Assembly (NCBI GenBank): GCA_025360815.1
Contig: JANYBL010000091.1
Span: 1 to 64,000, forward strand
Reading direction: 5' to 3'
Source: Burkholderiales bacterium
GTDB lineage: Bacteria; Pseudomonadota; Gammaproteobacteria; Burkholderiales; Usitatibacteraceae
Length of the DNA stretch: 64,000 nucleotides
Below the pieces are notes generated by a model. That model worked only from the letters and a program-made list of their open reading frames with translations, made no database searches and was not told the DNA's origin. This document shows, in pieces, positions 32,319-58,914 of this stretch. Each line of letters starts with the position of its first letter. Within the stretch, counting starts at the first letter, position 1. The translations under genes and the position numbers were made by a program.

Positions 32319-32482
32319 ACTGAGAATAAAATAGAAGCTCTAGTATTCACGGGCACCACAGAAGCTTTTCGCCCCAAAAAAGGTCGCCGCTACTGGCGTT
32401 ATATCATGTGTATCTCTCCTTAGCACCAGAGTTCCCAGTATGAATTTCTTTGTCGGTAGTAGGTCGGCGTGATGGCACATTG

Positions 32483-34210
32483 ATGTCGAGCCGAACCCCC
32501 AATCAAATTATCGATGGCCTCGGCAATGCCGATGTAAGCAGCGACAATCAGACTGTAGAGAAACCTATTGTGATCCGTAGTCTACGTGCGGTCCTAATGG
32601 TGGGTATTATTTTTGCCGCGGTTATTGGACTCTTTTGGCCGACGTTTCAAAGTCTTCTTGGCTTGGATGCCGACGCAACCAGCCGGTCACCCTCCGGATT
32701 TGTATTAATTGTTTTCGTGATCATGCTTTGGTCGCTGCGTGATGAACTCGCTGCAATCGCAATTACACCGCAGTGGTCGGGAATAGTTGGCTTAGTCGCC
32801 CTTGGTTTTATATGGTTTATCGGAGAACTACTATTCGTCCGGATCATCACTTATTTTGCCGTTATAGCGATGTTGCCAGCCGCGGTGCTTACCATTTTGG
32901 GACGCTATATTTTTAGAGCGCTGGTATTTCCGCTCGCATTTCTATTGTTGGCAGTTCCGATAGATGGACTAATTGCGCCAACGTTAGTCAACTGGACGGC
33001 CGATTTCACTTTTTTTGCGCTCCATGCCTCAGGCATTCCGCTGTATCGCGAAGGCGCTTCTTTTCTGCTGCCAACGGGTGCATGGTCAATCGCTGACGCC
33101 TGCAGCGGCTCACAATATTTGTGTGTTTGCGCCATATTGGGCGTGCTCTATGCTTGGGCTATGTATCGCTCAGTCTGGCGACGTACAGTCTTTATAGCGG
33201 GCGTTTTGGTACTCGGCATTGTTGGCAATTGGATCAGGGCCTACTTTACGATTTTCATCGCGCATGCAACCAACAATCAGCTATTACGGGACGACCATTC
33301 GACCTTTGGCTGGTGTTTGTTTGCTGTCCTGTTTGCTATTTATTGCTGGCTTGGTTGGCAGTGTAGAGGCACGGCTCGCGGCCAATTTGGTGAATACGAG
33401 GATACGGAGTGGTTAAAAAATAATTCCGATCCGACAGCCCGAGCCCTCGTCACCTTGAACCTTAAGGCGAGCGATAGCGCCGTCAGCCAACGGCGGACAG
33501 TGCTTATCTCGGCTGCTTTTTTTACCACCTGCATTGTGCTGTTTGCAGGGCCGCTAATTCACTCAAAACTCGCGCCCGTAGCAGATTTATCGGCGAACTC
33601 AGCGACGAAAACGGACACCCAAGCTATTCATATCAAGCCGCGATCCGGTTGGCTGGAGGCCGAGAACTCAGGTTTGCCATGGCTCCCTTCTTTGACAAAT
33701 CCGAGCTGGCAACAGCGGCAAAGCTTCGAAAAAAATGGCCGCCGCGTCGATCTGTATATAGGCGTTTTTCAGCATCAGACGTGGCAATCGAAGCTAGTGA
33801 GCACCGCCAATCAGTGGGTCAATTCTGACGATCCTAACTGGAGCTTAGCCGTGCGTGGATCCGCCCCGACTAGTTTCGACGGTAAACCGTTAACGGTCGA
33901 TACTGGTGTTATAAAATGTGGCGTGAGCGGAACTGCACCGGGTGCAAATATACGGGTGCTTGCTTGGCGGTGGTATTTAGTCAACGGACACGCATCCGCA
34001 TCCGGCCTTGAGGCCAAAATTCAGCAGTTACGGGGGCATTTACCGCTACGATTGGCAGAGAGCGTGTCGAGTGGTGAAGCTGCCGCGTGGATCGCGCTTT
34101 ATTTGCCGCTCGGCGAACAAGAGCCGGTTGAAAACGCAGCTGAATTTTTGGACGGATTTATGCGCGAAATGAGTCCAGCGTTGATGGCCGCGCTCGCGCG
34201 CATTGAATAG
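32483..34210 (+). CDS. xrtA: exosortase A with fused EpsI domain
   Basis: An inner-membrane transpeptidase-like protease that cleaves PEP-CTERM sorting signals. The N-terminal half has eight or so membrane segments and the three signature residues: Cys in DACSGSQYL, Arg in GNWIRAYF and His in DDHSTFGW (about 207, 252 and 272 from this start). The C-terminal half, after a further membrane span near residue 355, is the EpsI/DUF3485 domain (WLEAENSGLPWLPSL; DLYIGVFQHQ). This fused layout is usual for exosortase A. The start is uncertain: ATG 32483 is preferred over TTG 32450, but neither has a good ribosome-binding site. Confidence 0.94.
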   Translation: MSSRTPNQIIDGLGNADVSSDNQTVEKPIVIRSLRAVLMVGIIFAAVIGLFWPTFQSLLGLDADATSRSPSGFVLIVFVIMLWSLRDELAAIAITPQWSGIVGLVALGFIWFIGELLFVRIITYFAVIAMLPAAVLTILGRYIFRALVFPLAFLLLAVPIDGLIAPTLVNWTADFTFFALHASGIPLYREGASFLLPTGAWSIADACSGSQYLCVCAILGVLYAWAMYRSVWRRTVFIAGVLVLGIVGNWIRAYFTIFIAHATNNQLLRDDHSTFGWCLFAVLFAIYCWLGWQCRGTARGQFGEYEDTEWLKNNSDPTARALVTLNLKASDSAVSQRRTVLISAAFFTTCIVLFAGPLIHSKLAPVADLSANSATKTDTQAIHIKPRSGWLEAENSGLPWLPSLTNPSWQQRQSFEKNGRRVDLYIGVFQHQTWQSKLVSTANQWVNSDDPNWSLAVRGSAPTSFDGKPLTVDTGVIKCGVSGTAPGANIRVLAWRWYLVNGHASASGLEAKIQQLRGHLPLRLAESVSSGEAAAWIALYLPLGEQEPVENAAEFLDGFMREMSPALMAALARIE

Positions 34211-34377
34211 AATTAATCGACAAAATACAGCGGTACATCTCGCCCGCGATTGCGACGCGGATTCGTTTCGAAACGTGCGCCGAAAAGTCACGCGGAAAGT
34301 GTCGGGAAATTTTACAATATGGTTGTTGATTAGTTGCCTATGTCTGTTAATGACATGATTTTGAAAGGATTATTTTT
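34211..34377. other. intergenic region between xrtA and the sigma-54 promoter
   Basis: Non-coding stretch after xrtA. It contains the 12-bp self-complementary sequence CGTTTCGAAACG at 34264-34275. No terminator with a T-run was seen after xrtA. Confidence 0.5.
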
Positions 34378-34395
34378 TTGGCATGCGATTTGCTT
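34378..34395 (+). promoter_or_regulatory. sigma-54 (RpoN) -24/-12 promoter
   Basis: TTGGCATGCGATTTGCTT matches the -24/-12 consensus TTGGCACG-N4-TTGCW, with the invariant GG (34380-34381) and GC (34392-34393) separated by exactly ten bases. The expected start of transcription is about 34405, giving a leader of roughly 64 bases before the PEP-CTERM protein gene. The sigma-54 activator PrsR is encoded 3 kb downstream, which fits. Confidence 0.8.
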
Positions 34396-34468
34396 TTGTG
34401 TAACCAGCAAAGCATTCGTTAAAGCAATCATCAAGTAAAAAAACATCCCCTCATCAAAGGATAAAAAT

Positions 34469-35131
34469 ATGAAATTCGCGCACAAAGCACTAATAGGTAT
34501 GGCCACCGCTTGTTTGGTTTCAGCAAATACAGCCGTTGCTACTCCCATCAACGTTACTGGAATGGGGTTTGCAAACCCGACGACCGTTCACATCAATTCA
34601 ACCACGCCACCTGCTGCCGAATACGTTTATTCGGGCGGATTTGCAACAACCAGCGGCACGAACTCTTTCCTCAGTTGGTGTGTCGATATTCTTAAAAATA
34701 CCTACTTCAACAGTCCATACAACGATGCGCAGTTGGTTGCCGCATCGTCGATCGGCTACATAGGCCAGCAACGGGCCGATTTGCTCGGAAGACTCGCCAC
34801 AGAATCGCTCGGTTTGGTCAACAATGGCGTCACATCTGGCGCTTTCCAATTGGCGGTTTGGGAAATCGTTTACGAAAGACCCAATCCAACAAACACGTTC
34901 AGCTTGAATACGGGCGCTTTTACTGCCTTTGGTGCCTCGGATGCGTCGATTGTTTTGGCCAATACTTGGCTTGCCAACCTTCCCAGCACGAGCAACTATG
35001 CAGTTAACGTATTTGTTAGCCCAACTCGTCAAAATTTGGCTACATTTACCAGCGTGCCCGAGCCATCGTCTTTGGCACTGCTTGGAATTGGCCTGCTTGG
35101 ATTGGCATTCATTAAGCGTAAGAAGTCCTAA
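34469..35131 (+). CDS. PEP-CTERM sorting domain protein (exosortase substrate)
   Basis: A secreted 220-residue protein with a Sec signal peptide (about 1-26, ending AVA) behind AAAGGAT. The C-terminus has the complete tripartite sorting signal: VPEPSSLALLGIG (196 on), a hydrophobic helix, and the basic tail KRKKS. This is the only such signal found in the window. The mature part, rich in Asn, Ser and Thr, has no recognised domain; the SFLSWCVDI and AVWEIVYE stretches resemble those seen in other PEP-CTERM proteins. It is bracketed by a sigma-54 promoter and an intrinsic terminator, so it is transcribed on its own. XrtA should cleave near PEP and anchor or release it. Confidence 0.93.
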   Translation: MKFAHKALIGMATACLVSANTAVATPINVTGMGFANPTTVHINSTTPPAAEYVYSGGFATTSGTNSFLSWCVDILKNTYFNSPYNDAQLVAASSIGYIGQQRADLLGRLATESLGLVNNGVTSGAFQLAVWEIVYERPNPTNTFSLNTGAFTAFGASDASIVLANTWLANLPSTSNYAVNVFVSPTRQNLATFTSVPEPSSLALLGIGLLGLAFIKRKKS

Positions 35132-35166
35132 GCTACTTTTAGCCAGTCTTAAAACGCGCAGTCCAG

Positions 35167-35192
35167 CCCCGCTTTGGCGGGGTTGTTCTTTT
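35167..35192 (+). terminator. rho-independent terminator after the PEP-CTERM gene
   Basis: CCCCGC (35167-35172), loop TTTG, GCGGGG (35177-35182), then TTGTTCTTTT. A GC-rich stem with a T-rich tail placed 35 bases after the stop codon. Confidence 0.85.
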
Positions 35193-35379: not shown

Positions 35380-37725
35380 ATGAGTGATTTTCCGGCTGTT
35401 CAAGCGATGTGGGGCTACGGCCTAGCAGCAATAATTTTTGCAATCTTCGCCATTCGCTTTTTTGTCGCTGAGCAATCAGCTCAACCAGGATTAAGCTTAC
35501 GCACAACCATCCTTGTTTGCGCTGTGATCATGAGTGCGCTATGGGCTGGCAGCATGCTGGTTGCGATCAAATGGCATCAGGCTGGGAACGAAATTTTCTG
35601 GTCGCTAGCGAGGGTGTCTGATGTAGCTCGTATGGCGGGTTTACTGGCTTTTTTGTCGCTACTTGTTACCGGTGACTCCGCGGGCAAGGAAAAGCAATCA
35701 TCTGTCCACCGAGTGGCATCGCAGCTTTGGATATTTGCGCTGTTATTTATCCTTTTGTTTGCCGCTGCAGTCTTGCCTCAGCCCATGCCTTGGGTTGCAG
35801 CAGCCGATATTGATGGTCGAGAGCTCGGATTCACTGCATTTTATCCGTGGCTTGGACTTTCGATTTTGGGGTTAGTACTAACCGAACAGCTTTATCAACG
35901 CATGCCCAAAAACCGAGTTTGGGCGGTTAAGCCACTCATCATTGGCCTGGGTTGCATGTTTGCCTACGATCTGGTCGTATTTTCGGGCGCGTTGCTATTT
36001 CACCAAGTGGATCCGGAGTTTTGGGCGGCTCGGGGAATAGCCCATGCGTTGGTGATGTTTTTTATCGCAATCGCGACACGCCGAAACATGGCGTGGACAC
36101 TTGATTTGCACGTCTCACGGGGTGTGGTGTTTCACTCAACGGCGATCTTTGTCGCCGGATGTTATTTGTTGATCGTTGCGCTGACAGCCTACTGGGTAAA
36201 TTATTTTGGCGGCGAATGGGGCAAAACCCTCCAAATTGTTATTTTGTTTACTGCCGTTTTGTTCCTCGCGACGCTGGCCATGTCGGGCTCACTGCGTGCC
36301 CGGTTGAGGGTTTTTATTAGTAAAAATCTCTTTTCATATCGTTACGACTATCGAAAGGAATGGCTGCAATTTACGACTAAACTTGGCACAGCGGAAGAAG
36401 GTGAAAGCTTGTATCAGCAAGTTATTCGCGCCCACGCAGATTTGGTAGAAAGCGTTGGCGGTGCGATATGGCTGGACCGGGGTGGAGTCATGTGCGAAAT
36501 GGCGCGATTGAATATGCCTCCGTTTTTTGTTGCCGCAAATGACGAGACCGCTGCTGATGTGGCGATTGAGAAACCACCACAATTGTACCCTGCCGCCGCC
36601 AGCGAAATGGCGTCGCTGGTGTCGTTTCTTCAGAACGGAAACTGGGTAATTCAAATTGATGAAGTGTTGAAAGAGCCCGCACGTTATCCCAATTTAGTAT
36701 TACCAACATGGCTTGTCAAACGCAAAGATGCATGGATTGTTGTGCCACTGCCGAACCCAAATAGCGTTGATTCCGGTAGCGTCGAACCGACAAATAGTGC
36801 GGGTTACAGCGGCGAACCCAAAAACAGCGAATTAATCGGCTTTGTAGTTTTAGCCCGTCCCCGAACACCAATTGATATCAATTGGGAGGTATTGGATTTA
36901 CTTAAAACTGCCAGCCGTCAGGCGGCGAGCTACTTGGCACAGCATCGCGCACAAGAATCACTGGTTGAGCTTGAGAAATTCGATGCGTTCAATCGTATGT
37001 CCGCATTTGTAGTGCACGACTTAAAAAATCTCATTTCGCAACTGGTGCTGTTACTCAAGAACGCTGAGCGGCATCGCGATAATCCGGAGTTTCAAAATGA
37101 CATGCTTGAGACCATCGATCACGTGGTCGGGCGTATGAATAGTCTGATGCTACAGCTACGGACAGGGACTACACCAGTTGGAAAACCATGTGCCATTGAA
37201 CTTGGCCCCATTATTAAGCGCATAGTCAGTGTGAAAAGTGCGAGCAATGGCGTGCAAAGTGACGGAAGCCAAAGTAACGATGTCACGGTTGAAGCCGAGC
37301 TGGCCCCCAATTTGCGGATCCTTGCGCACGAGGACCGGATAGAGAGGGTCATTGGCCACGTTGTACAAAATGCAATAGAGGCAACAGTTATTAAGAACCC
37401 CATAGTTCTCGAGGCTAACAAGCGCGTTGAAAGGGTTATGCTACGTGCTTACGTTGATGAAAAAAATGTCTTTATTGATGTTATCGACAGCGGTGTCGGC
37501 ATGAGCGAAGAGTTTATCCGCGAGTACTTATTTCATCCGTTTCAGACCACAAAGGCGCAGGGAATGGGGATTGGTATGTTTGAGAGTTTTCAATACATTG
37601 GCAGCATTCGCGGCCGTATTTCAGTCACTAGCGCGCTCAATGTAGGCACCACATTTAGTCTCATTTTTCCCTTGCTTTCCGCAGCTGCGAAATATGAACA
37701 TGCTCAGCTTCACCCAACACCATGA
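35380..37725 (+). CDS. prsK: sensor histidine kinase PrsK
   Basis: Membrane sensor kinase of the PEP-CTERM regulatory pair (TIGR02916 by recollection). About eight membrane segments fill residues 10-310; a GAF-like region follows (about 330-525); the H-box is FVVHDLKNLISQ with His 546; the N-box is VIGHVVQNAIEAT and the G-boxes DVIDSGVGMSEEF and GMGIGMFESFQY. The stop overlaps the prsR start by four bases (ATGA). It should phosphorylate PrsR; the signal is unknown. Confidence 0.94.
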   Translation: MSDFPAVQAMWGYGLAAIIFAIFAIRFFVAEQSAQPGLSLRTTILVCAVIMSALWAGSMLVAIKWHQAGNEIFWSLARVSDVARMAGLLAFLSLLVTGDSAGKEKQSSVHRVASQLWIFALLFILLFAAAVLPQPMPWVAAADIDGRELGFTAFYPWLGLSILGLVLTEQLYQRMPKNRVWAVKPLIIGLGCMFAYDLVVFSGALLFHQVDPEFWAARGIAHALVMFFIAIATRRNMAWTLDLHVSRGVVFHSTAIFVAGCYLLIVALTAYWVNYFGGEWGKTLQIVILFTAVLFLATLAMSGSLRARLRVFISKNLFSYRYDYRKEWLQFTTKLGTAEEGESLYQQVIRAHADLVESVGGAIWLDRGGVMCEMARLNMPPFFVAANDETAADVAIEKPPQLYPAAASEMASLVSFLQNGNWVIQIDEVLKEPARYPNLVLPTWLVKRKDAWIVVPLPNPNSVDSGSVEPTNSAGYSGEPKNSELIGFVVLARPRTPIDINWEVLDLLKTASRQAASYLAQHRAQESLVELEKFDAFNRMSAFVVHDLKNLISQLVLLLKNAERHRDNPEFQNDMLETIDHVVGRMNSLMLQLRTGTTPVGKPCAIELGPIIKRIVSVKSASNGVQSDGSQSNDVTVEAELAPNLRILAHEDRIERVIGHVVQNAIEATVIKNPIVLEANKRVERVMLRAYVDEKNVFIDVIDSGVGMSEEFIREYLFHPFQTTKAQGMGIGMFESFQYIGSIRGRISVTSALNVGTTFSLIFPLLSAAAKYEHAQLHPTP

Positions 37726-39146
37726 GCTCAATCAAACGCAAACCGCTGTTAATTGTTGAAGACGATCTGGCGCTGCAAAAGCAGATGCGCTGGGCATTTG
37801 ATCAAAACGAGACCGTTGTCGCTGATGATGCCGAGAGCGCCATCGCACAAATCAGACGTTTTGAACCCGCAGTTGTTACGATGGACCTCGGTTTGCCCCC
37901 GAACCCGGACGGCGTCACGGAGGGGTTCAATTTGCTAAAGAAAATTTTGGATGTCGCACCACATACCAAGGTTATCGTGCTGACGGGACAAAACGACCAT
38001 GCCAACGCTCTGCAAGCCATTCGCTTGGGAGCGTATGATTTTTACGCGAAGCCGTTTGACCCGGTCTTACTGGGCTTCACCATCGAGCGCGCGTACCGCT
38101 TGCATGAGTTGCAGGAGGAAAATCGGCGTTTGCAAACTAGCGTGCAAAAGAGCAGTTTTGCTGGATTGATCACGCAAGATGCAGCGATGTTGCGCATGTG
38201 TCGCATAGTCGAGAAAATTGCGCCGACCAACGCCACCGTCCTGCTTCTGGGGGAGTCCGGTACTGGCAAGGAGGTGGTTGCGCGGGCGTTACATGATCTT
38301 TCGCCGAGACGCAAAGAGCGCTTCGTTGCGATCAATTGTGCGGCCATTCCGGAAGCGTTGTTGGAGAGTGAGCTTTTTGGCTACGAAAAAGGGGCGTTTA
38401 CGGGTGCTGCTAAACAAACTATCGGCAAAGTTGAGATTGCGCACAAAGGCACTCTTTTTCTCGATGAAGTCGGTGACTTGCCCATGCCGCTGCAGGCCAA
38501 GCTGTTACGTTTTTTGCAGGAGCGGGTGATAGAACGAGTCGGTGGTCGCGAAGAAATTGCGGTCGACATTAGAATCGTTTGTGCTACGCATCAGGACCTA
38601 AAGATGATGATTGCGGAGAGGAAATTTCGCGAAGATTTGTATTTTCGTTTGGCCGAGATTGTGCTCGATATTCCGCCGCTACGGAAGCGCGTTGGTGATG
38701 CGGCTTTGATTGCACACTCATTCGTGCGGCGGTTTGCGGAGGAACATCGGCGCGGTACATCGTCGCTGCAACCCAAGGCAATTGATGAAATTGAATCCTA
38801 CCCTTGGCCTGGCAATGTACGCGAGCTCGAAAACTGCATCAAACGCGCCGTGATAATGGCCGAGAGCAGTACTATCACTGCCGATGATTTAGGCCTAAGT
38901 CGGGTTGTTAGCACCGCTGGGACTAACAGCACAGCCAGCGACGCGAGCAATGTCGCCACCGAGAATACGGCGAATGGTCAGCGAACCGACAAGCTCAATT
39001 TGCGCCAAGTGCGCGATGAGGCCGAACGGCAGGCGGTGGCTCGTGTTTTGGGGCGCGTTGACGGTAATTTATCTAAGGCTGCCGAGCTACTGGGCGTCAG
39101 CCGACCAACACTGTATGAATTATTGGATCGTTTTGGGCTACGTTGA
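37722..39146 (+). CDS. prsR: sigma-54-dependent response regulator PrsR
   Basis: NtrC-type activator (TIGR02915 by recollection). Receiver domain residues 8-125 with phospho-acceptor Asp 55 in [13 protein letters not shown]+ domain with Walker A GESGTGKE (177-184), the sigma-54 contact loop GAFTGA (224-229) and Walker B LFLDEVGD (245-252); C-terminal Fis-type helix-turn-helix [20 protein letters not shown]. All parts needed for sigma-54 activation are intact. It is co-translated with prsK. The promoter at 34378 is the most likely local target. Confidence 0.95.
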
Positions 39147-39211
39147 TTTTTTGGTGGCCATCTTCGCTCTTTAACGATGCCACATTCCGCGCTTGGTACT
39201 TTATTTTCCGA

Positions 39212-42007
39212 ATGCAAAAAATGAATAAATCAATATTTTTTATCGGCGCTGTGCTGACTACAGCCGTAATCACCTGCGCTGGCTGCGAACAGCAATCATC
39301 TGCGATGTTCGTTAAGTCTGCCAGAGATTACATGGCAAAACGTGACTACGCCGCAGCGGCTATTCAGCTCAAAAATGCCGCGCAGAAAGAAAACACAGGT
39401 GAGGTGCGTTACTTGTTAGCCAGCTCACTCATCGAATTAGGTGACTATAGCGGTGCCGAAATTCATTTACGAAAAGCGCAAGATTTGCGTTATGCACCAG
39501 AGCTAGTTTATCCCGCATTGGCGAGAGTCATGATGGGGCAGGGTGAGGCGAAAAAACTGGTTGAGGAGCTAGGTAATGTTGCGATTCCAGATGCCGCAAC
39601 GCAATGCGCTATTAAATCATCTATTGGCGAGGCTTATCTCGTATTGGGTGATCGAGCAAAAGCGCGTGAAGCCTTTTCCGTTGCGCTTAAGCTAGCGCCT
39701 GGTGATGCACGGGCGCGCGTTGGTGAAGCAAGAATCGCCGCCGCAGCGGGGGATATCGTGAGTGCAAACGGTGTGGCTGACGAGATTCTTGCGAACGTTG
39801 CCGACAACACGCATGCACTCTCTCTGAAAGCAGACCTCTTCGTATCGCAGGGCAAAGTAGATGAAGCCATCGCCGTGCTGTCGAAGCTGGTCGCGGCATC
39901 GCCATTTGACGGGCAGGCACGATTCGTACTAATTTCGCTGCTGATCGGTGCTGATAGATTCAACCAAGCCGCCGCCGATATCGCGTCGATGCAAAAAGTG
40001 CTACCGAATGACATACGCGGACGCTATCTCGAAGCGACACTCGCTTTTCGAAAAAATGAGCCCCTTAGGGCGCGGGATGTCGTTATTCAAGTACTAAATG
40101 TCCTACCCGATCATGCGCCTTCGCTCATGCTGGCCGGTGCAGCTGAATATCAGCTAGGGTCATTGGCAACAGCGGCAGATTATTTGCGAAAGGCTGTCGC
40201 TAAAAATCCGGGTAGTACCTACGCCCGCAATCTGCTTGCAACTACCTATCTTCGGCAAGGGCAACCGGTCAAAGCAGAAGAGGCGATTACTCCAGCGCTG
40301 AAGCTTGCGCCGCAAGATGCCAACGTGTTGCGGACGGCGGGTGAGGTTGCATTAGCAAAGAATCAATTGACTGATGCTGCCCGGTTCTATGACCGGGCGC
40401 TCGCCACCGAGAAGGATAGCGTGGCATTGAAAACGCGTTTGGCGCAAATTCGGCTCGCTAATGGCGAAATGGAGCGCGCGATTGCCGATCTTGAATTAAC
40501 ATCAAACCTCGATAAAGACCAATACCAAGCAGACTTGTCGTTAATTAGCGCCCACCTTGTCGCTAGGCAGTTCGATAAGGCATTGCAGGCGGTCGGGAAA
40601 CTCGAAAAGAAGCAGCCCGATAATCCGCTCACATTTAACTTAAAAGGTTCAGCACAAATCGGCAAAAGCGATGTCAAGAGCGCCCGAATAAGTTTTGAAA
40701 AAGCACTGCTACTTCAACCAACATACCTCCCTGCCGCCCGTAATTTGGCGAGATTAGATGTGGCTGAAAAAAGGCCAGCGCTGGCGACGGCGCGCTTCAA
40801 CGCCATCCTGGAAAAAGAACCAAATAACGAGGGTGCGTGGCTCGCGCTGGCTGAGGCTCAAATGATGACCGGCGCACCTGCAAAGGAGGTAAAGGAAACG
40901 CTGAGTAAAGCGATTTCCATCGACCAAAAATCGGCACCCGCACGTTTGGCACTCATTGATTTTTTAGCAAAAAATCGTGATTTAGCCGGCGCGATGGCGG
41001 CGGCTACCGCTGCACATAACGCCATACCCGATGAGCCAAGGTTGTTGGATGCGCTGGGCGCGGCACAATTGGCGGCAGGGCAGACAGCGCAGGCGATAGA
41101 GTCGTTCAAAAAATTGGCTACACTGCAACCCGATTCGCCATTGCCATTGTTACGTTTGGCGTCTGCGCAGTTCGCCTCAAAGCAAGTTGATGTTCCGCTG
41201 CAAGCGTTACGCAAAGCACTGGCGATGCAGCCCGATTTGCTCGATGCGCAGCGAGATATTGTCACTTTGCAGCTGGCAGCGGGCAAGCCTGAGGAAGCAT
41301 TAAAAGAAACCCGCGTGATTCAGAAAGCGAGGCCGAAAGAAGGTATTGGGTTTGCACTCGAAGGCGATGTGCTGGCCAGTCAGAAAAAATTTTCTGAAGC
41401 AACGCGGGCCTATGCAGAAGCACTCAAGCGACAAGCAACGCCCGAGCTCATCGTCAAACAGCACCAGCTAATGCTAATGGGCGGTAAGACTTGGGAGGCG
41501 AAAAGCCTTACAACGCAATGGGTGAAAGACAATCCAAACGAGCCAATCGTGCGATTCTACTTGGCAACGCTTTTGATGCAGGAGAAAGCCTACAAAGAGG
41601 CCGCGCAAGGGTACAGGGAAATTCTTGCTATCCAGCCCGATAATGTCGCCACGCTCAACAATCTTGCGTGGGTTTTGAGTCAGATGAAAGATGCCTCCGC
41701 TCTATCCTATGCCGAGAGAGCCTATTTGCAGGCGCCGTTAAACCCCAGTATCCAAAACACGTATGGCTGGTTACTTTTTAGCGATGAGAATGCTGAAAGT
41801 CGGGAGCGAAATCGGAAGCATGGCCTTGAATTGCTAACGCAATCCGCCGTCGCTGCCCCCAATGATGCCGACATTCGCCTTCATCTTGCGAAGGCAATGG
41901 TAAAATCAGGGGACAAAGTGGGCGGTATTAAGGAATTGCAGGCAGTGATTCGCTTGGGCGAGTCCACCGCTAAAACGGAGGCGGAACTACTCCTAAAATC
42001 ATTGTAA
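39212..42007 (+). CDS. prsT: PrsT, TPR-repeat lipoprotein of the PEP-CTERM system
   Basis: A very long tetratricopeptide protein (TIGR02917 by recollection), about 930 residues. The N-terminus MNKSIFFIGAVLTTAVITCAGC has a lipobox (TCAGC), so it is probably an outer- or inner-membrane lipoprotein facing the periplasm. More than twenty TPR-like helices follow, for example ALAKNQLTDAARFYDRAL and NNLAWVLSQMKDASALSYAERA. A frame opening at 39143 is longer but its extra residues do not look like a signal peptide; ATG 39212 or ATG 39221 is the likely start. The gene follows prsR closely. The PrsT function is unknown; scaffolding of export or sorting is assumed. Confidence 0.92.
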   Translation: MQKMNKSIFFIGAVLTTAVITCAGCEQQSSAMFVKSARDYMAKRDYAAAAIQLKNAAQKENTGEVRYLLASSLIELGDYSGAEIHLRKAQDLRYAPELVYPALARVMMGQGEAKKLVEELGNVAIPDAATQCAIKSSIGEAYLVLGDRAKAREAFSVALKLAPGDARARVGEARIAAAAGDIVSANGVADEILANVADNTHALSLKADLFVSQGKVDEAIAVLSKLVAASPFDGQARFVLISLLIGADRFNQAAADIASMQKVLPNDIRGRYLEATLAFRKNEPLRARDVVIQVLNVLPDHAPSLMLAGAAEYQLGSLATAADYLRKAVAKNPGSTYARNLLATTYLRQGQPVKAEEAITPALKLAPQDANVLRTAGEVALAKNQLTDAARFYDRALATEKDSVALKTRLAQIRLANGEMERAIADLELTSNLDKDQYQADLSLISAHLVARQFDKALQAVGKLEKKQPDNPLTFNLKGSAQIGKSDVKSARISFEKALLLQPTYLPAARNLARLDVAEKRPALATARFNAILEKEPNNEGAWLALAEAQMMTGAPAKEVKETLSKAISIDQKSAPARLALIDFLAKNRDLAGAMAAATAAHNAIPDEPRLLDALGAAQLAAGQTAQAIESFKKLATLQPDSPLPLLRLASAQFASKQVDVPLQALRKALAMQPDLLDAQRDIVTLQLAAGKPEEALKETRVIQKARPKEGIGFALEGDVLASQKKFSEATRAYAEALKRQATPELIVKQHQLMLMGGKTWEAKSLTTQWVKDNPNEPIVRFYLATLLMQEKAYKEAAQGYREILAIQPDNVATLNNLAWVLSQMKDASALSYAERAYLQAPLNPSIQNTYGWLLFSDENAESRERNRKHGLELLTQSAVAAPNDADIRLHLAKAMVKSGDKVGGIKELQAVIRLGESTAKTEAELLLKSL

Positions 42008-42117: not shown

Positions 42118-42442
42118 CTGTAAATCTTTATGACCGACCCGCGATTACGGTATGACCCAAGATTTTTGTACTTGATCGCTCTTGAACGGACTAAAATTTG
42201 GGTTGCGGTAATTTATTGAATTTTTGTCCAATCGCTGACATAACATGATGTAACAATGGATTGGACAGCAGACGTGGTCACTAGGTGGTCACTAAGTGGT
42301 GTTGAAACGAATTCGTTTTTGAGATTACTGCCGCCTTTAGTAAAGTCGCGCAGCGAGCGTAGCCTGCAGATATAAAGCGGGGATTGGTTTGGTATTACGG
42401 CAGACGGCTGCGAAAAGTTGTATACGGTCTAGGAGGCCAACA
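42118..42442. other. intergenic region upstream of the giant FN3 protein
   Basis: About 325 bases without a credible gene. It holds the inverted repeat GTCCAATC (42226-42233)/GATTGGAC (42259-42266) and, directly after it, the GTGGTCACTA direct repeats. A TATAAA at 42370-42375 has no convincing -35 partner. No sigma-54 site was found. Confidence 0.5.
42274..42300. repeat. 11-bp direct repeats upstream of the FN3 protein gene
   Basis: GTGGTCACTAG (42274-42284) is followed directly by GTGGTCACTAA (42285-42295) and a partial third copy GTGGT. The 11-base phase places the copies on the same face of the helix, so a cooperative binding site is possible. Confidence 0.6.
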
Positions 42443-45400
42443 ATGAATATCCTACAGCACATTTTTGGTTTCAAGTGCCCAAAACCCCGATCTACGACGC
42501 CAAGAAAATTGCTTGCCAGTCGGCTAGCGAGCAGCGCGTTGGCACTCTCGGTATGTTGGGCTTCCTCAGCTTACGCGGTTGCGCCTAACCCGCCCAATAG
42601 TGCCGCCGCCGTCCCCGGAAATGGTAAGGTAACGGTCAGCTTTACGCCGGCTGCGTCGGGGGCTGCTGCTACAAGTTTTACCGTTACAGCAAGCCCTGGA
42701 GGGGCAGTTGGCACCGGCGCATCATCTCCGATCGACGTGACCTGCCTAACAAATGGTGTTGCTTACACATTTACAGTGACCGCCGATAACGTAACTGGCA
42801 GCAGTACCGCTGTGGCGCCGTCAGGCGCCTACATTCCACGAACCACACCGGATGCGCCGAGTATTAACGGCGCGACACCTGGCAATGGAGCGGTAACCGT
42901 CGCATTCACTGCGCCAGCGTTTAACGGCGGTAGCGCCGTAACGGGGTATACCGTCACGCCGAGCCCTAGTGGAACACCGGTCTCGGGCACTTCCAGTCCG
43001 TTGATCGTTACTGGGCTCACCAACGGAACTGCCTATACTTTTACCGTTACTGCCAATAATGTTGCCGGAACAGGAGCAGCTTCGGCGCCTTCGGGTAGCG
43101 TAACGCCCGCTGGCGCTGCGACCGTGCCGGGTGCGCCAACTATTGGCACAGCAACGGGAGGAAATGCCACCGCTTCCGTTACCTTTACACCACCGGCAAG
43201 CGATGGCGGTAGTGCCATTATCGACTACACCGTGACCTCCACACCGGGCAACAAAACAGCAAACTTTGCATCCAGCCCGATAACAGTTAGTGGTCTTTCC
43301 AACGGAACCGCTTATACCTTTGCCGTCACTGCTAGAAACGCAATCGGCTCAAGTGTTGCGTCAGCCGCTTCCAACACGGTTACGCCTGCGGCTGCGCCGC
43401 CTGTCGCGCCAGGGGCTCCGACGATTGGAACGGCAACGCCCGGCAATGGTAGTGCTACTGTCACTTTCACTGCACCCGCCAGCAACGGCGGCAGCGCAAT
43501 CCTTGACTATACCGCCACCGCGACCGACGGAATATCCACGTTCACCCAAGTGCTTCTCGGTTCAATTGCTGCGCCGATCACCGTTAGCGGGCTAACGAAT
43601 GGGGTTGCGTACACGATAACAATTAAAGCACGGAACGGTGTCGGAACAGGCTCGTCATCGGCTCCGTCCAACAGTGTGACCCCGGCTACCGCGCCGGGTG
43701 CACCAACAACGGTAAGCGCCGTGGGCGGAAATGCCAGTGCGACTGTTTCGTTTACGACGCCAGCGAGCAATGGCGGCAGCCCTATTACCAACTATAAAGT
43801 AACCGCCGCGCCAGGCGGCGCGAACGTCACTGGCAATTTAACCACGCTGACGGTTCTGGGTTTGGTCAACGGTACTGCTTATACCTTCACTGTCGTTGCG
43901 ATCAATGCGATTGGAACTGGCCCAGCTTCCTCACCTGCCAGCAACAGCGTAACCCCTGCAACAGTTCCAAATGCGCCCACCATCATTTCAGTGTTTGCTG
44001 GTAATCAAACAGCAACCGTCAACTTCAATGCTCCTGCCGTAAACGGTGGCAGCCCGGTAACCAGCTATACCGTCACCTCCAATCCAGCGGGCGGGACAAT
44101 CAGCGGGCCAGCAAGCCCGTTGACGGTAACTGGTCTGACCAATGGGGTTGCCTACACGTTCACGGTAACGGCAACCAACGCTGTCGGTACGGGTGCAGCC
44201 TCGACCCCAACGAGTTCAGTAACGCCAGCCACAGTGCCAAATGCACCGACCGTTGGCGCGGTTGTCGCGGGCAACGCCAGTGTTTCAGTCAGCTTCACGC
44301 CGCCTGCGTTCAACGGCGGTCGACCAATCAGTGCTTATACGGTCACGTCCAACCCCGGTAATCTCACTGGCGTTGGGACAACTAGCCCTATAATTGTGGC
44401 AGGGCTCATCAATGGCCAAGCCTATACGTTCAGCGTGACGGCGACTAACAGCATCGGTGTGAGTTTGCCATCGTCAGCATCGGCCAGCGCCACACCGCAA
44501 GCTACTCTTCCGGGGGCGCCGACCATCGGCACAGCTGCCGTCGTTGGTCAAACCCAAGTTGCCAACGTGGCATTTACACCGCCAGCAGGCAATGGCGGCA
44601 GCGCAATCACCCGCTACGACGTGACATCGACCCCCGGAGGTTTGACCAATTTTGGGGCAGCATCACCGATTGCTGTCTCTGGCCTGGTGTACGGTGTTGC
44701 CTATACCTTTACCGTGACGGCAACCAATATTGCCGGCACCGGCGTTGCCTCAGCGGCTTCTAATAGCGTGACGCCCGCCACCGCACCCAGTGCGCCGACG
44801 ATTGGCGCGGCCACCGCAGGCAACGGCACAGCATCTGTCACCTTCACCGCGCCTGCGAGCAACGGTGGCAGCGCCATACTTTCCTATACGGCAACCTCAA
44901 CGCCGTCGGGTATCACTGCAACCGGAACCACAAGTCCGCTGTTACTTACTGGCTTAACGAATGCGACAGCCTACACATTTACGGTGCTCGCCACTAACGC
45001 ATTAGGTGCCGGTGCATTATCGGCCGCATCAAACAGCGTCACCCCTCAAGCCGTTGCGCCAAATGCACCGTCGATTGGCACGGCAACGGCGGGCAATCAA
45101 TTCGCCGATGTCACATTTACCCCACCGAACAACAACGGCGGAAGCGGAATCCTTGATTACACCGTGACGGCATCGCCGGGGGGCCAGTTCGTTACCGGCA
45201 CGACCAGTCCATTGCGTGTGTTGGGCTTAATCAACGGGACGACTTACACGTTCACAGTTGTGGCCACAAATATGATTGGGTCCAGTGTGCCGTCTGCTGC
45301 CTCGAATAGTGTTATTCCGGCCACGGCGCCAAGCGCACCAACGATTGGTGTAGCAACGCAGGGATTCGGAAGTGCCACCGTGTCGTTTGCGGCACCGGCT

Positions 45401-47656
45401 AGCAATGGTGGGCGGCCTATTACCAGCTATACCGTGATTGCAAGTCCGAGTGGAATAACTTCTTCTGGGGCCGCAAGTCCGCTAACTGTTTCAGGGCTGA
45501 CGGCGGGCGTTTCCTACTCCTTCACTGTTCTGGCCAATAATGGGGTCGCAAACAGTTTGCCATCGGCGTCCTCGAATGTCGTAACCCCGCTGGATCTGGC
45601 ACCGAATTCGCCAAGGTCTGTTTCGGCGGCGGCGGGGAACACGCTAGCGACCATTTCGTTTCTATCGCCTATTGCAAACGGCGGCTCGCCTGTTTCAAGC
45701 TACACAGTAACGGCCAACCCCGGTGGCGCTACTGCGAGCGGCTCTGGCAGTCCGATAGTTGTATCAAACCTCTCGAATGGTACGAGCTATACATTTACCG
45801 TGACGGCGACCAATGGTGCGGGAACCGGCGCGGCTTCTGCGCCCTCAAACGCCGTTACGCCAGCATTGCCGATTTCAATATCCAGTGGGCCCAACACGAC
45901 ATTTAATGTCGGCGCAAGCGGTAAATTTACAGTGACGGCTAGTGGCGGATCTGCGCCACAGTTTGCGATCGTCGGTGCATTGCCGTTAGGGGTCAAATTC
46001 GTTGCTGCAACGGGTGTGCTTGGTGGTGTGCCGGCGGCTGGGACGGTTGGTGACTACGTGCTATCGATAAGTGCAATTGATGCTGGCAATGCAAGCGGTG
46101 CGCAGTCGTTTACGTTAACGGTTGCCAAAGGTAATCAAGTTATTTCGTTTACCAATCCCGGCACGCGCAGTTTGCAATCGTCGCCCTTCACTGGATTGAC
46201 GGCGTCGTCTTCGGGCTCGGTGCCGATATTGGCTACGTTAACCGATACCGTGTGCGGCGTGGCGGGTAACAATACGATTACCTTACTTACGGTGGGTAGC
46301 TGTACCATCCAAGCTTCATTGGACACCAGTATCAGCTATAACGCGGCCACCCCGGTTACGCAAACATTTGCAGTTGCGAGCGCAGCAGCGCAGCAACCAC
46401 AGACCATCGTGTTCAACCCGTTATCGAACCGCACGGTAGGAGGCGGCGCGTTGGTGGCGGCAGCCAGTGGGGGCGCCTCGGGAAACCCAGTCGTATTTTT
46501 CTCAACCACGCCTGCTGTTTGTACGGTTGCTAGCAACAACTTTGTGAACCTGACTGGTGAACTCGGTGCGTGCAGCATCATTGCCAACCAAGCCGGTAGC
46601 GCGACTTATCTGCCCGCAACGCCGGTTACGCAAAACTTCTTGGTGATCGCCTCGGCACTTCAGCCACTCGCCCAGCGCGGCGGCGTTGACGTCGACGGCA
46701 GCGGGCTCAGCACACTGGTGCTGCGCTCTTCAACTGGCGCGTTGCAAATGGGACGCTTAGTGAATTTTGTGTTCCAGTTCACGCCACAAGCCGATCCGGG
46801 TTCTTCATTCCGTACGCTTGGCGCCCTCGATTTCCGTGGGTCTGGCAAATCAGATTTGGTGTTTCAAAATATCGTGCAAACAGACGGCTTAGGTGATGTC
46901 TTCATTTGGGATAACTTTGTCTCGGGCACCGAGCATCTCCTACGCAGCGTTAAGCGTACGTGGGATGTTCAGGCAGTCGGCGATCTTGATGGAGATGGTT
47001 TCGGTGATTTGGTCTGGCGCTACATTACGCCTGATACGCCTGATACTGGGGTCTCCTATATTTGGTTTACGGACGGTAAAGGTGTCAATCAAGTTCGGAA
47101 ACGTGGCGGTGCGCCGCTAGATTGGAAGTTGCTCGGGGCAGCCGATATTAACAACGATGGCGCAGCTGACATGGTCTATATCAATCCCGCGAATCAAATT
47201 CGCGTTCTGATGGCAACGCCGTTGCGAACCTGCGCAAACTTGACTGCGGGTTCCGTACCTACGGGCTTCACGGCATTGAAGGCAACTGACTTCACCGGCA
47301 AAGGCCGTGCCGACATCCTCGTTCGAAACGCGACAACTGGACAGACAGGATTAATATCATTGGATGCGCGCGGCTTGACACTGCCACCCTCGTTCGCAAA
47401 TCCCGATGATCCGAATGCATCTTGTACGCCCAGTTCGCTGATCGTTGGTAACAGCTTTATCGCCCTTCCTGATACTGATCCGACTTGGCAATTTTTCGCC
47501 TCAGGCGATTTCAATGGTGATGGCGTAATGGATATTGTTTTCCGTAAGCCCGACGGCACACTCGTTTTGTGGTTGATGAGCGGCAGCACCCCGTCAAATC
47601 CGATTATTTTGATGAACGCGGGGACGGTGACGGATGGGTTTAATATTCAACCGTGA
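42443..47656 (+). CDS. giant secreted protein with twelve FN3 repeats and FG-GAP-like repeats
   Basis: Start ATG 42443 has a strong AGGAGG upstream; a longer frame from 42389 is unlikely. A long signal peptide (about 1-47) ends ASSAYA. Residues about 50-1145 consist of twelve fibronectin type III domains of about 90 residues, each with a P-x-APTIG start, an NGGS turn and a LTNGTAYTFTVTATN strand. Then come a putative-Ig domain (about 1150-1235), two low-similarity Ig-like segments with CTVAS/CTIQAS cysteines, and from about 1410 six FG-GAP/VCBS-like units (DLDGDGFGDLVW, DINNDGAADMVY, DFNGDGVMDIVF), which probably bind calcium. There is no PEP-CTERM, LPXTG or autotransporter signal. A surface adhesin or matrix protein is the likely role. 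Confidence 0.88.
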   Translation: MNILQHIFGFKCPKPRSTTPRKLLASRLASSALALSVCWASSAYAVAPNPPNSAAAVPGNGKVTVSFTPAASGAAATSFTVTASPGGAVGTGASSPIDVTCLTNGVAYTFTVTADNVTGSSTAVAPSGAYIPRTTPDAPSINGATPGNGAVTVAFTAPAFNGGSAVTGYTVTPSPSGTPVSGTSSPLIVTGLTNGTAYTFTVTANNVAGTGAASAPSGSVTPAGAATVPGAPTIGTATGGNATASVTFTPPASDGGSAIIDYTVTSTPGNKTANFASSPITVSGLSNGTAYTFAVTARNAIGSSVASAASNTVTPAAAPPVAPGAPTIGTATPGNGSATVTFTAPASNGGSAILDYTATATDGISTFTQVLLGSIAAPITVSGLTNGVAYTITIKARNGVGTGSSSAPSNSVTPATAPGAPTTVSAVGGNASATVSFTTPASNGGSPITNYKVTAAPGGANVTGNLTTLTVLGLVNGTAYTFTVVAINAIGTGPASSPASNSVTPATVPNAPTIISVFAGNQTATVNFNAPAVNGGSPVTSYTVTSNPAGGTISGPASPLTVTGLTNGVAYTFTVTATNAVGTGAASTPTSSVTPATVPNAPTVGAVVAGNASVSVSFTPPAFNGGRPISAYTVTSNPGNLTGVGTTSPIIVAGLINGQAYTFSVTATNSIGVSLPSSASASATPQATLPGAPTIGTAAVVGQTQVANVAFTPPAGNGGSAITRYDVTSTPGGLTNFGAASPIAVSGLVYGVAYTFTVTATNIAGTGVASAASNSVTPATAPSAPTIGAATAGNGTASVTFTAPASNGGSAILSYTATSTPSGITATGTTSPLLLTGLTNATAYTFTVLATNALGAGALSAASNSVTPQAVAPNAPSIGTATAGNQFADVTFTPPNNNGGSGILDYTVTASPGGQFVTGTTSPLRVLGLINGTTYTFTVVATNMIGSSVPSAASNSVIPATAPSAPTIGVATQGFGSATVSFAAPASNGGRPITSYTVIASPSGITSSGAASPLTVSGLTAGVSYSFTVLANNGVANSLPSASSNVVTPLDLAPNSPRSVSAAAGNTLATISFLSPIANGGSPVSSYTVTANPGGATASGSGSPIVVSNLSNGTSYTFTVTATNGAGTGAASAPSNAVTPALPISISSGPNTTFNVGASGKFTVTASGGSAPQFAIVGALPLGVKFVAATGVLGGVPAAGTVGDYVLSISAIDAGNASGAQSFTLTVAKGNQVISFTNPGTRSLQSSPFTGLTASSSGSVPILATLTDTVCGVAGNNTITLLTVGSCTIQASLDTSISYNAATPVTQTFAVASAAAQQPQTIVFNPLSNRTVGGGALVAAASGGASGNPVVFFSTTPAVCTVASNNFVNLTGELGACSIIANQAGSATYLPATPVTQNFLVIASALQPLAQRGGVDVDGSGLSTLVLRSSTGALQMGRLVNFVFQFTPQADPGSSFRTLGALDFRGSGKSDLVFQNIVQTDGLGDVFIWDNFVSGTEHLLRSVKRTWDVQAVGDLDGDGFGDLVWRYITPDTPDTGVSYIWFTDGKGVNQVRKRGGAPLDWKLLGAADINNDGAADMVYINPANQIRVLMATPLRTCANLTAGSVPTGFTALKATDFTGKGRADILVRNATTGQTGLISLDARGLTLPPSFANPDDPNASCTPSSLIVGNSFIALPDTDPTWQFFASGDFNGDGVMDIVFRKPDGTLVLWLMSGSTPSNPIILMNAGTVTDGFNIQP

Positions 47657-57147: not shown

Positions 57148-58914
57148 ATGTCGAATCTTTCACGTCGTGAATTTTTGCAGGTTCTTGCTGTCGCCAGCGC
57201 GGGTGGTTTTGCGTTCGATACAGCAGCAGAAATGGCTGGAAATCCTCGCAGATCGCGCATCTTGGGGAAGTCAGTGGGGCAATCTGCTGCTCATTTTTAC
57301 GATCTGCCGCGCTTCGGCAATGTGCATTTGCTGCACATGACCGATTGCCATGCGCAGCTCACCCCGACCTACTTCCGCGAGCCGAGTGTCAATCTCGGCC
57401 TGTTTGGAGCCAGCGGCCGCGCGCCGCATTTAGTGGGCGAAAAGCTGCTCAAACAGTTCAACATTGCCCCGCATTCGCGCGAGGCCCACGCCTTTACCTA
57501 TCTTGATTTCGAACACGCCGCACGTGCTTACGGCAAGGTCGGCGGCTTCGCGCATATCGCTACGTTGGTCAAACAACTCAAAGCATCGCGTCCCAACGCG
57601 CTGCTGCTGGACGGTGGCGATACCTGGCAAGGCTCCGCAACGGCGTTATGGAGCAAAGGCCAAGACATGGTCGACGCATGTTTGCAACTCGGCGTGAATG
57701 TGATGACGGCGCATTGGGAAATGACGTTGGGTGCTGCTCGTGTGCAAGAAATTATTAACCGCGATTTTCAGGGTCGCATCGATTTCGTTGCGCAAAATAT
57801 TCATACTGTTGATTTTAACGATCCTGTTTTTCAACCGTTCGTTATGAAAGAAATGAACGGTGTCTCGGTCGCAATCGTTGGGCAAGCATTCCCGTATACG
57901 CCAATTGCCAACCCCCGTTATTTCACGCCGGATTGGACATTTGGCATCAAAGAAACGGAAATGCAGCAAACCGTGAACGCCGCCCGTTCAAAGGGCGCTG
58001 CGGTCGTGGTGTTGCTTTCACACAACGGCATGGATGTGGACCTCAAAATGGCCTCGCGCATCACCGGCATAGACGCGATCATGGGCGGGCATACGCACGA
58101 TGGCGTGCCGCAGCCAATCGTTGTCAACAACGCAGGCGGTAAAACGCTCGTTACGAATGCAGGTTCGAATGGGAAATTTTTGGGTGTGCTCGATTTCGAC
58201 GTGAAGGCTGGAAAGGTTGCCGATTTTCGCTACAAGCTGATGCCAATTTTCTCGAACCTTTTGTCGGCGGACAAAGACATGCAAGCGCTGATTGATAAAA
58301 TCCGCGCACCGCATTTAGCCAAGCTCACTGAAAAGCTTGCTGTCACTGATGGTCTGTTGTACCGCCGTGGCAATTTTAACGGCACGTTTGATCAAGTGAT
58401 TCTCGATGCTTTGATCGAACGTAAAAACGCCGAGATTGCCTTCTCGCCCGGCTTTCGTTGGGGCACGTCGATCCTGCCTGGGCAGGCGATTACGATGGAG
58501 CATGTGATGGATCAAACGGCAATCACTTACCCCTACACAACGGTCACCGAGATGCGCGGTGAGATGATCAAAACTGTGCTGGAGGACGTCGCAGATAATC
58601 TCTTCAACCCAGACCCCTATTACCAACAAGGTGGCGATATGGTGCGTGTAGGGGGCATGCAATACACTTGCCAGCCCGTTGCCAAAATGGGCAGTCGAAT
58701 CAGTAATATGGTGTTGAAAGGTAAAGCGATCGACCCCAACAAAATCTACAAGGTTGCCGGTTGGGCGCCGGTAGCGGAGGCAGCGGCCAGTTCAGGTGCA
58801 GAACCCGCTTGGGATTTAGTTGCCCATTATTTGCGCGATAAAAAGACCGTTAAACCCGCAAAATTGAATTTGCCCAAGCTTGTAGGTACTGCGGGAAATG
58901 CCGGAATCGCCTGA
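57148..58914 (+). CDS. soxB: thiosulfohydrolase SoxB
   Basis: Dimanganese enzyme that hydrolyses sulfate from SoxY-bound thiosulfonate. The Tat signal LSRREFLQVLAVASAGG is clear. The metallophosphoesterase core shows HLLHMTDCHAQLTPTYF (Asp 66, His 68), LLLDGGDTWQGSATALWSKGQDM, AHWEMTLGAARV, VVLLSHNGMDVDL, and GGHTHDGVPQP. The 5'-nucleotidase C-terminal domain ends the protein. Length 588 matches the family. It is the last gene of the sox operon. Confidence 0.96.
   Translation: MSNLSRREFLQVLAVASAGGFAFDTAAEMAGNPRRSRILGKSVGQSAAHFYDLPRFGNVHLLHMTDCHAQLTPTYFREPSVNLGLFGASGRAPHLVGEKLLKQFNIAPHSREAHAFTYLDFEHAARAYGKVGGFAHIATLVKQLKASRPNALLLDGGDTWQGSATALWSKGQDMVDACLQLGVNVMTAHWEMTLGAARVQEIINRDFQGRIDFVAQNIHTVDFNDPVFQPFVMKEMNGVSVAIVGQAFPYTPIANPRYFTPDWTFGIKETEMQQTVNAARSKGAAVVVLLSHNGMDVDLKMASRITGIDAIMGGHTHDGVPQPIVVNNAGGKTLVTNAGSNGKFLGVLDFDVKAGKVADFRYKLMPIFSNLLSADKDMQALIDKIRAPHLAKLTEKLAVTDGLLYRRGNFNGTFDQVILDALIERKNAEIAFSPGFRWGTSILPGQAITMEHVMDQTAITYPYTTVTEMRGEMIKTVLEDVADNLFNPDPYYQQGGDMVRVGGMQYTCQPVAKMGSRISNMVLKGKAIDPNKIYKVAGWAPVAEAAASSGAEPAWDLVAHYLRDKKTVKPAKLNLPKLVGTAGNAGIA

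Follow-up and report, generated by a model that had tools for sequence, protein, structure and literature searches.

What switches on a gene for a PEP-CTERM protein that lies between an exosortase gene and the genes of a histidine kinase and an enhancer-binding response regulator? The question is raised by a stretch of 64,000 nucleotides from a Burkholderiales bacterium of the family Usitatibacteraceae (the window hereafter), where the order from left to right is galE, xrtA, an intergenic region of 258 nt with the regulatory element, pepA, a terminator-like stem, prsK, prsR and prsT (Table 1). The original prediction placed a sigma-54 promoter before pepA and regarded this site as the link between the regulator PrsR and its target. 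As argued below, we put the probability that pepA is driven by a PrsR-activated sigma-54 promoter at about 0.9, judging from the DNA sequence and its comparison among genomes.

Table 1. Features discussed in the text (positions in the window unless a locus is named)
Feature	Position	Strand	Basis or remark
xrtA, exosortase A with EpsI-type C-terminal domain	32450..34210	+	TIGR03109, TIGR02914 over cut-off
PrsR-type activator box TGTCGGGAAATTTTACA (Haft motif 1)	34300..34316	+	exact TGTCGGN5TTTACA match
IHF-like site TAATGACATGATT	34348..34360	+	one mismatch to YAAN4TTGATW
Sigma-54 -24/-12 promoter TGGCATGCGATTTGCT (predicted)	34379..34394	+	one mismatch to TGGCACGNNNNTTGCW
Predicted transcription start	34405..34405	+	from -12 placement
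Likely ribosome-binding site AAAGGA	34456..34461	+	7 nt before ATG
pepA-like PEP-CTERM protein gene	34469..35131	+	220 aa, tail VPEPSSLALLGIGLLGLAFIKRKKS; TIGR02595, PF07589 over cut-off
Terminator-like stem 3' of pepA	35164..35185	+	9-pair stem, 7 G-C, T-rich tail
prsK, histidine kinase	35380..37725	+	TIGR02916 over cut-off
prsR, enhancer-binding response regulator	37722..39146	+	TIGR02915 over cut-off
prsT, TPR protein	39143..42007	+	TIGR02917 over cut-off
SRRRFT...LTLAS-type protein	L173 620-1279	+
SRRRFT...LTLAS-type protein	L190 711-1403	+
SRRRFT...LTLAS-type protein	L197 683-1312	+
SRRRFT...LTLAS-type protein	L199
SRRRFT...LTLAS-type protein	L200 786-1439	-

The pepA gene and its neighbors

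The pepA product is recognized by two general PEP-CTERM models, and with the floc_PepA model it reaches 39.4 of the 80 bits, under the cut-off. The start codon of xrtA is TTG as listed and is uncertain. PrsR contains a receiver domain, the GAFTGA motif and a Fis-like C-terminus, and prsK-prsR-prsT follow just downstream of pepA, as expected from the earlier statement that a PrsR with an intact GAFTGA loop is encoded nearby. On the opposite strand are genes for a PEP-CTERM-type export protein, a chain-length determinant and a tyrosine kinase, while the only rpoN of the genome is on another contig. The stem 3' of pepA suggests that pepA forms a single-gene unit; terminator-like matches of this kind number four in the region against 2.2 expected. 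After prsT there is an open reading frame of 1755 aa (42389-47656, plus strand), for which an NCBIfam scan gave no PEP-CTERM match but three matches, all under their cut-offs.

The genome is estimated to be 99.99% complete and has just one PEP-CTERM protein over cut-off; no other protein passed the cut-off of either model, and the runner-up scored 14.0 bits against 16. Therefore, the exosortase, PrsK-PrsR and the EPS cluster appear to be devoted to a single substrate, and Rhodospirillum rubrum is likewise described with a single PEP-CTERM gene (PMC1569441). A scan of the genome for the same element before other PEP-CTERM genes, which had been suggested, returned none: the strict element of pepA stands alone, and no other PEP-CTERM gene over cut-off is available for it to precede.

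A sigma-54 promoter paired with an upstream box

The letters TTGGCATGCGATTTGCTT given earlier for 34378-34395 are correct, with GG at 34380-34381 and GC at 34392-34393 separated by ten bases, and the start predicted here from the -12 placement is the position that had been named, 34405. For scoring we used TGGCACGNNNNTTGCW, which we take to be the sigma-54 -24/-12 consensus, and TGGCATGCGATTTGCT agrees with the extended -24 GG/-12 GC consensus except for one mismatch. The start codon follows 74 nt on, and thus a near-consensus site does stand directly before the PEP-CTERM substrate gene. It is to be noted, however, that the GG-N10-GC geometry by itself is no evidence for a promoter, as about 500 occurrences are expected by arithmetic in 64 kb on two strands with equal base frequencies. 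Sites with one mismatch to the full consensus were found twice in the window against 1.12 expected from shuffles, the second being at 58658-58673 on the minus strand within the open reading frame 57148-58914, and sites with up to three mismatches 126 times against 133 expected. When the genome as a whole was scanned for TGGCAYN5TTGCW, one mismatch being allowed, 441 places were found, compared with 202 for the backward pattern, so that sigma-54-like sites are in excess as a class whereas a lone site is within chance. Since about one such match per 64 kb arises by chance, the promoter at 34379-34394 needs further support, and its letters as the only evidence were dropped.

What decides the case is a box paired with the promoter beyond chance, which the original prediction overlooked. 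It is the sole exact match to TGTCGGN5TTTACA in the window, and it would lie at about -105 to -89 relative to the predicted start, with a spacer of 62 nt to the TGGC of the promoter. The core of the box was derived in the present analysis, from relatives rather than from the Haft logo (Figure 5). The strict pair of box and promoter occurs once in the window, in none of 100 shuffles of it, and once in the whole genome. Thus, the idea that this site links PrsR to its target is supported, but the tie is the upstream box and not the promoter. A looser pair, TTTACA-N45-75-TGGN8TTGC, was rejected as unselective (11 genome matches against 11 in the control). Boxes with at most one mismatch occur at 21 places in the genome (backward control, 27), and none of them except that of pepA has a promoter with up to three mismatches 30-99 nt on its 3' side; this search is blind to boxes more degenerate than one mismatch.

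Could the promoter match nevertheless be accidental, pepA being served by a sigma-70 promoter or by transcripts that run on from xrtA? The chance frequency of the promoter letters would allow it. Against it are the paired box, its spacing and its conservation, and a simple consensus scan of the plus strand found no sigma-70-like site at 34150-34469, while upstream of the element, at 34244-34260, there is a terminator-like stem, though a weak one. We give this explanation hardly any weight.

The pair of promoter and box is an ordinary, well-formed member of a known element. In 2006, Haft and colleagues predicted a cis-element for PEP-CTERM-positive Proteobacteria. It begins with a motif of 17 nt that has TTTACA at its end, and a spacer (mean 62.8 nt, s.d. 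10.6, range 32-92) separates this from a sigma-54-like motif; of 167 PEP-CTERM genes from Proteobacteria, 99 are preceded by it (PMC1569441). Like that element, the one in the window has a box ending in TTTACA followed by a -24/-12 motif before a seemingly single-gene PEP-CTERM unit, a spacer of 62 nt close to that mean, 74 nt from promoter to start codon where the mean there is 71, and long upstream non-coding DNA (the 258 nt between xrtA and pepA); PrsK, PrsR and PrsT are present as well, all over cut-off in the window. An experimental precedent is also available. The pepA gene of Aquincola tertiaricarbonis has a start mapped by primer extension, a TGGCAC/CTGCTT promoter and rpoN1-dependent transcription, and it resembles the present gene in its -24/-12 promoter, an upstream enhancer (predicted there) and a terminator after pepA (PMC9850573). 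The gene orders differ: in A. tertiaricarbonis, pepA is followed by prsT, with prsK-prsR at a separate locus, whereas the present pepA is flanked by xrtA and prsK. In Zoogloea resiniphila, PEP-CTERM genes are reported to be under the control of RpoN and PrsK-PrsR (PMC9012009). Therefore, the earlier statement that control of PEP-CTERM genes by PrsK, PrsR and RpoN has been proposed is right in substance, but its wording understates the published evidence (PMC1569441, PMC9850573, PMC9012009).

Conservation of the element and its co-occurrence with PrsR

A search of the genus gave seven pepA matches including that of the window itself, and a pepA homologue is present in six of 13 genomes. PrsR is over cut-off in five of these six, the exception being G007, which is 73% complete, and in none of the remaining seven, several of which are 86-88% complete. 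In 15 other genomes of the family, neither PrsR nor a pepA homologue was found. Such a patchy distribution within the genus (PrsR over cut-off in 5/13), with nothing found in the 15 family genomes, suggests loss or transfer. The match in G002 is cut by its contig, and five homologues have readable upstream DNA: two in G005 and one each in G006, G007 and G012. All five keep the box (one or two mismatches), the promoter (none to two) and the IHF-like site discussed below (none or one, 18-19 nt before the promoter). Their spacers are 62 nt in four cases and 74 nt in one, and G012 has the box in two copies. The sites of two of the five, G005 C376 and that of G007, are identical.

The survey was then widened to 399 genomes of the order. 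The strict element with a spacer of 45-75 nt occurs at 57 places in 41 genomes (reversed control, one place), that with 76-106 nt at 17 places in 13 genomes and that with 14-44 nt at two places (no control match seen for either); the shorter and longer spacers were surveyed in this order sample only. Together these make 76 elements (spacers, 14-106 nt), called set 1 hereafter. PrsR is over cut-off in 99 of the 399 genomes, which are taken to be the same as those of the element survey; four candidates per genome were scored at a strict threshold, and 280 negative genomes are unlisted. The 45-75 nt element is found in 38 of the 99 PrsR-positive genomes and in 3 of the 300 PrsR-negative ones (G032, G109 and G125; Fisher 1e-22, uncorrected for kinship), and 11 of the 13 genomes with longer-spaced elements are PrsR-positive, G341 and G192 being the exceptions. 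Since 61 of the 99 positive genomes lack the strict 45-75 nt element, the strict pattern misses many; by demanding the exact box core and TGGC/TTGC, our searches see the best-matching elements alone.

These distributions also bear on the possibility that another NtrC-like activator drives the promoter and PrsR is a bystander. At least 23 places in the genome match the PrsR model, one alone over cut-off, and activators of this class have a common architecture. The box, however, co-occurs with PrsR both in the order and in the genus, and prsR lies within the same cluster as pepA, which makes another activator very unlikely. If PrsR is indeed the activator, the predicted regulatory link would be confirmed in a further lineage.

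Spacing between box and promoter appears to follow the helix

All 76 spacers of set 1 are 30, 42, 50-55, 61-65, 73-75, 84-88 or 95-98 nt long, and the 62-nt spacer of the window falls in the main class. A period of 11.15 bp fits best (bootstrap 10.95-11.40), with a phasing R of 0.80; the maxima for two kinds of random sets, 5,000 of each, are 0.42 and 0.452. When one site was drawn per genus from 29 genera, which is the sole way in which kinship among sites was handled, the median R was 0.79 against a 99.9% null of 0.56. Further sites came from one scan of public genomes, and those among the matches listed form set 2 (78 sites) and set 3 (39 sites), of mixed taxa including Burkholderiales, after two repeats of set 1 were dropped. 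Among the matches listed, 74/78 spacers of set 2 and 37/39 of set 3, or 111/117 together, belong to the classes of set 1, which were fixed beforehand and would take 45% by expectation; the six sites outside have spacers of 49, 60, 66, 70 (twice) and 72 nt. It is thus well supported that the spacing is helically phased, with box and promoter a whole number of helix turns apart. Such phasing would be required if the DNA formed a short loop to bring activator and polymerase together. The sigma-54 enhancers of the Vibrio qrr genes are reported to tolerate insertions or deletions of 10-11 bp but not of 5-6 bp; these belong to another regulatory system and to 61 genes of one genus (PMC4740811), whereas the phasing described here, among the matches listed and judging from record titles, extends over Alpha-, Beta-related, Gamma- and Deltaproteobacteria and Nitrospirae.

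An IHF-like site in the spacer

Is there anything within the loop? By inspection, TAAnnnnTTGAT recurs in the spacers, and it is the reverse of the IHF consensus, the E. coli form of which is quoted in PMC7962754. In the window, the IHF-like site would be at about -57 to -45, 18 nt before TGGC. One-mismatch matches to this consensus number 63 in the window against 64 expected; lone matches were therefore rejected as significant, and the site rests on its position, which, like its orientation, is the one enriched among related elements. The consensus and the places were chosen after inspecting set 1, and both stood fixed when the other two sets were scored; a site had to be in plus orientation, 17-20 or 28-31 nt before TGGC, with no more than one mismatch. 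At these places an IHF-like site is present in 30/76 elements of set 1 (shuffle mean 0.9, maximum 4) and, among the matches listed, in 26/78 of set 2 (mean 0.7, maximum 5) and 12/39 of set 3 (permuted-motif control only), or 38/117 for the latter two. Backward, complement, permuted and half-swapped motifs gave 0 to 2 per set. When the eight places were moved by -16, -8, -4, +4 or +8 nt, 0-6 of 117 sites matched in sets 2 and 3 (among the matches listed); a move of -12 nt gave 33/117 because the moved places overlap 16-19 nt. The 28-31 nt place has eight matches in set 1 and none in set 2 among the matches listed, where elements with spacers of 73-75 nt carry the site, where present, at 18-20 nt. 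As it is peculiar to set 1, the 28-31 nt place was removed from the three-part reading given below, which was also judged slightly less probable on this account.

With these counts, an IHF-like site between box and promoter, in a minority of elements, is moderately supported. The arrangement is like that of IHF-assisted sigma-54 promoters (PMC7962754), the site here being putative, with one mismatch. Another reading keeps the same promoter and PrsR box and dispenses with IHF: TAAnnnnTTGAT might be the site of another bending protein, or simply bent AT-rich DNA. It can appeal to the fact that IHF is suggested by the consensus alone, to the 46/76 elements of set 1 in which the fixed places hold no site with up to one mismatch, and to sigma-54 enhancers that lack IHF and have stretches rich in AT or sites for further factors (PMC4740811). 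The opposite orientation, moreover, is in excess at any distance in set 1 (22/76; shuffle mean 6.0, maximum 13), with 10/78 in set 2 among the matches listed (mean 4.7, maximum 11). At the fixed places, however, the opposite orientation gives just 7, 0 and 1 in sets 1, 2 and 3 (the latter two among the matches listed), so that one orientation is strongly, though not exclusively, preferred. It is this joint preference for position and orientation, far above the shuffle means of sets 1 and 2 and the control motifs, that speaks against a reading without IHF, and we consider such a reading doubtful. A further point that may speak against a simple role of IHF comes from Geobacter sulfurreducens: Table 2 of PMC7962754 gives the expression of the PEP-motif gene GSU1943 as about 3-fold higher in two ihf mutants. 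On balance, we suppose that IHF probably plays a role at the pepA promoter. More generally, we lean slightly toward the view that PEP-CTERM promoters across Proteobacteria are often switches of three parts: a sigma-54 promoter, a directional IHF site, which precedes the -24 box by about 17-20 nt, and a box for PrsR, locked to the same face of the helix as the promoter with a spacing period of about 11.15 bp. As part of this view and with the same slight leaning, we take the complete switch to act on one substrate gene alone in this genome.

Neither the phased spacing nor the IHF-like site of PEP-CTERM promoters appears to have been reported so far. The available text of Haft and colleagues summarizes the spacing by its mean, s.d. 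and range, has no "IHF", and has "helical" in one reference title only (PMC1569441). Likewise, no phasing or IHF site is described for PEP-CTERM promoters in the available texts of PMC1569441, PMC9850573, PMC9012009, PMC7962754, PMC5744179 and PMC4740811, a coverage from which subscription journals are mostly absent. Both features would offer checks independent of the box and thereby ease the prediction of PEP-CTERM regulons. In addition, looping theory can be set against the spacings of these elements, which amount to a large series of naturally occurring sigma-54 enhancers, and, if the three-part view is true, the helical repeat of DNA within the cell could be read from evolution.

A possible course of events at the pepA promoter

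How might these parts work together? PrsK would phosphorylate PrsR, which would then occupy the box. The DNA between box and promoter would bend, probably around IHF at its putative site; PrsR, bound on the correct face of the helix, could thereby contact the RpoN-polymerase at the promoter through a loop, and the GAFTGA loop of PrsR would open the promoter. The transcript would run from about 34405 to about 35185 and cover pepA only, and its product would presumably be sorted by XrtA.

Genes preceded by the element elsewhere

A PEP-CTERM tail was detected just downstream of the element in 38/76 cases of set 1 and, among the matches listed, in 47/78 of set 2. The test, a regular expression, overlooks some tails; several of the proteins failing it resemble PEP-CTERM proteins by eye, and some loci end too early. 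Some elements precede genes other than those for PEP-CTERM proteins, as Haft and colleagues already mentioned (PMC1569441). Among such genes are those for proteins of about 210-230 aa with SRRRFT...LTLAS-type N-termini, preceded by strict elements (Table 1). Four of the five, all but that of L199, were scanned and matched no Pfam or NCBIfam family, and these proteins are candidates for a second class of PrsR targets. The element is also found before a gene for a transglycosylase-Sel1 protein (L150 536-1456, minus strand, by scan; L172 is alike by eye) and before one for a PilZ-domain protein (L161 1622-1960, plus strand).
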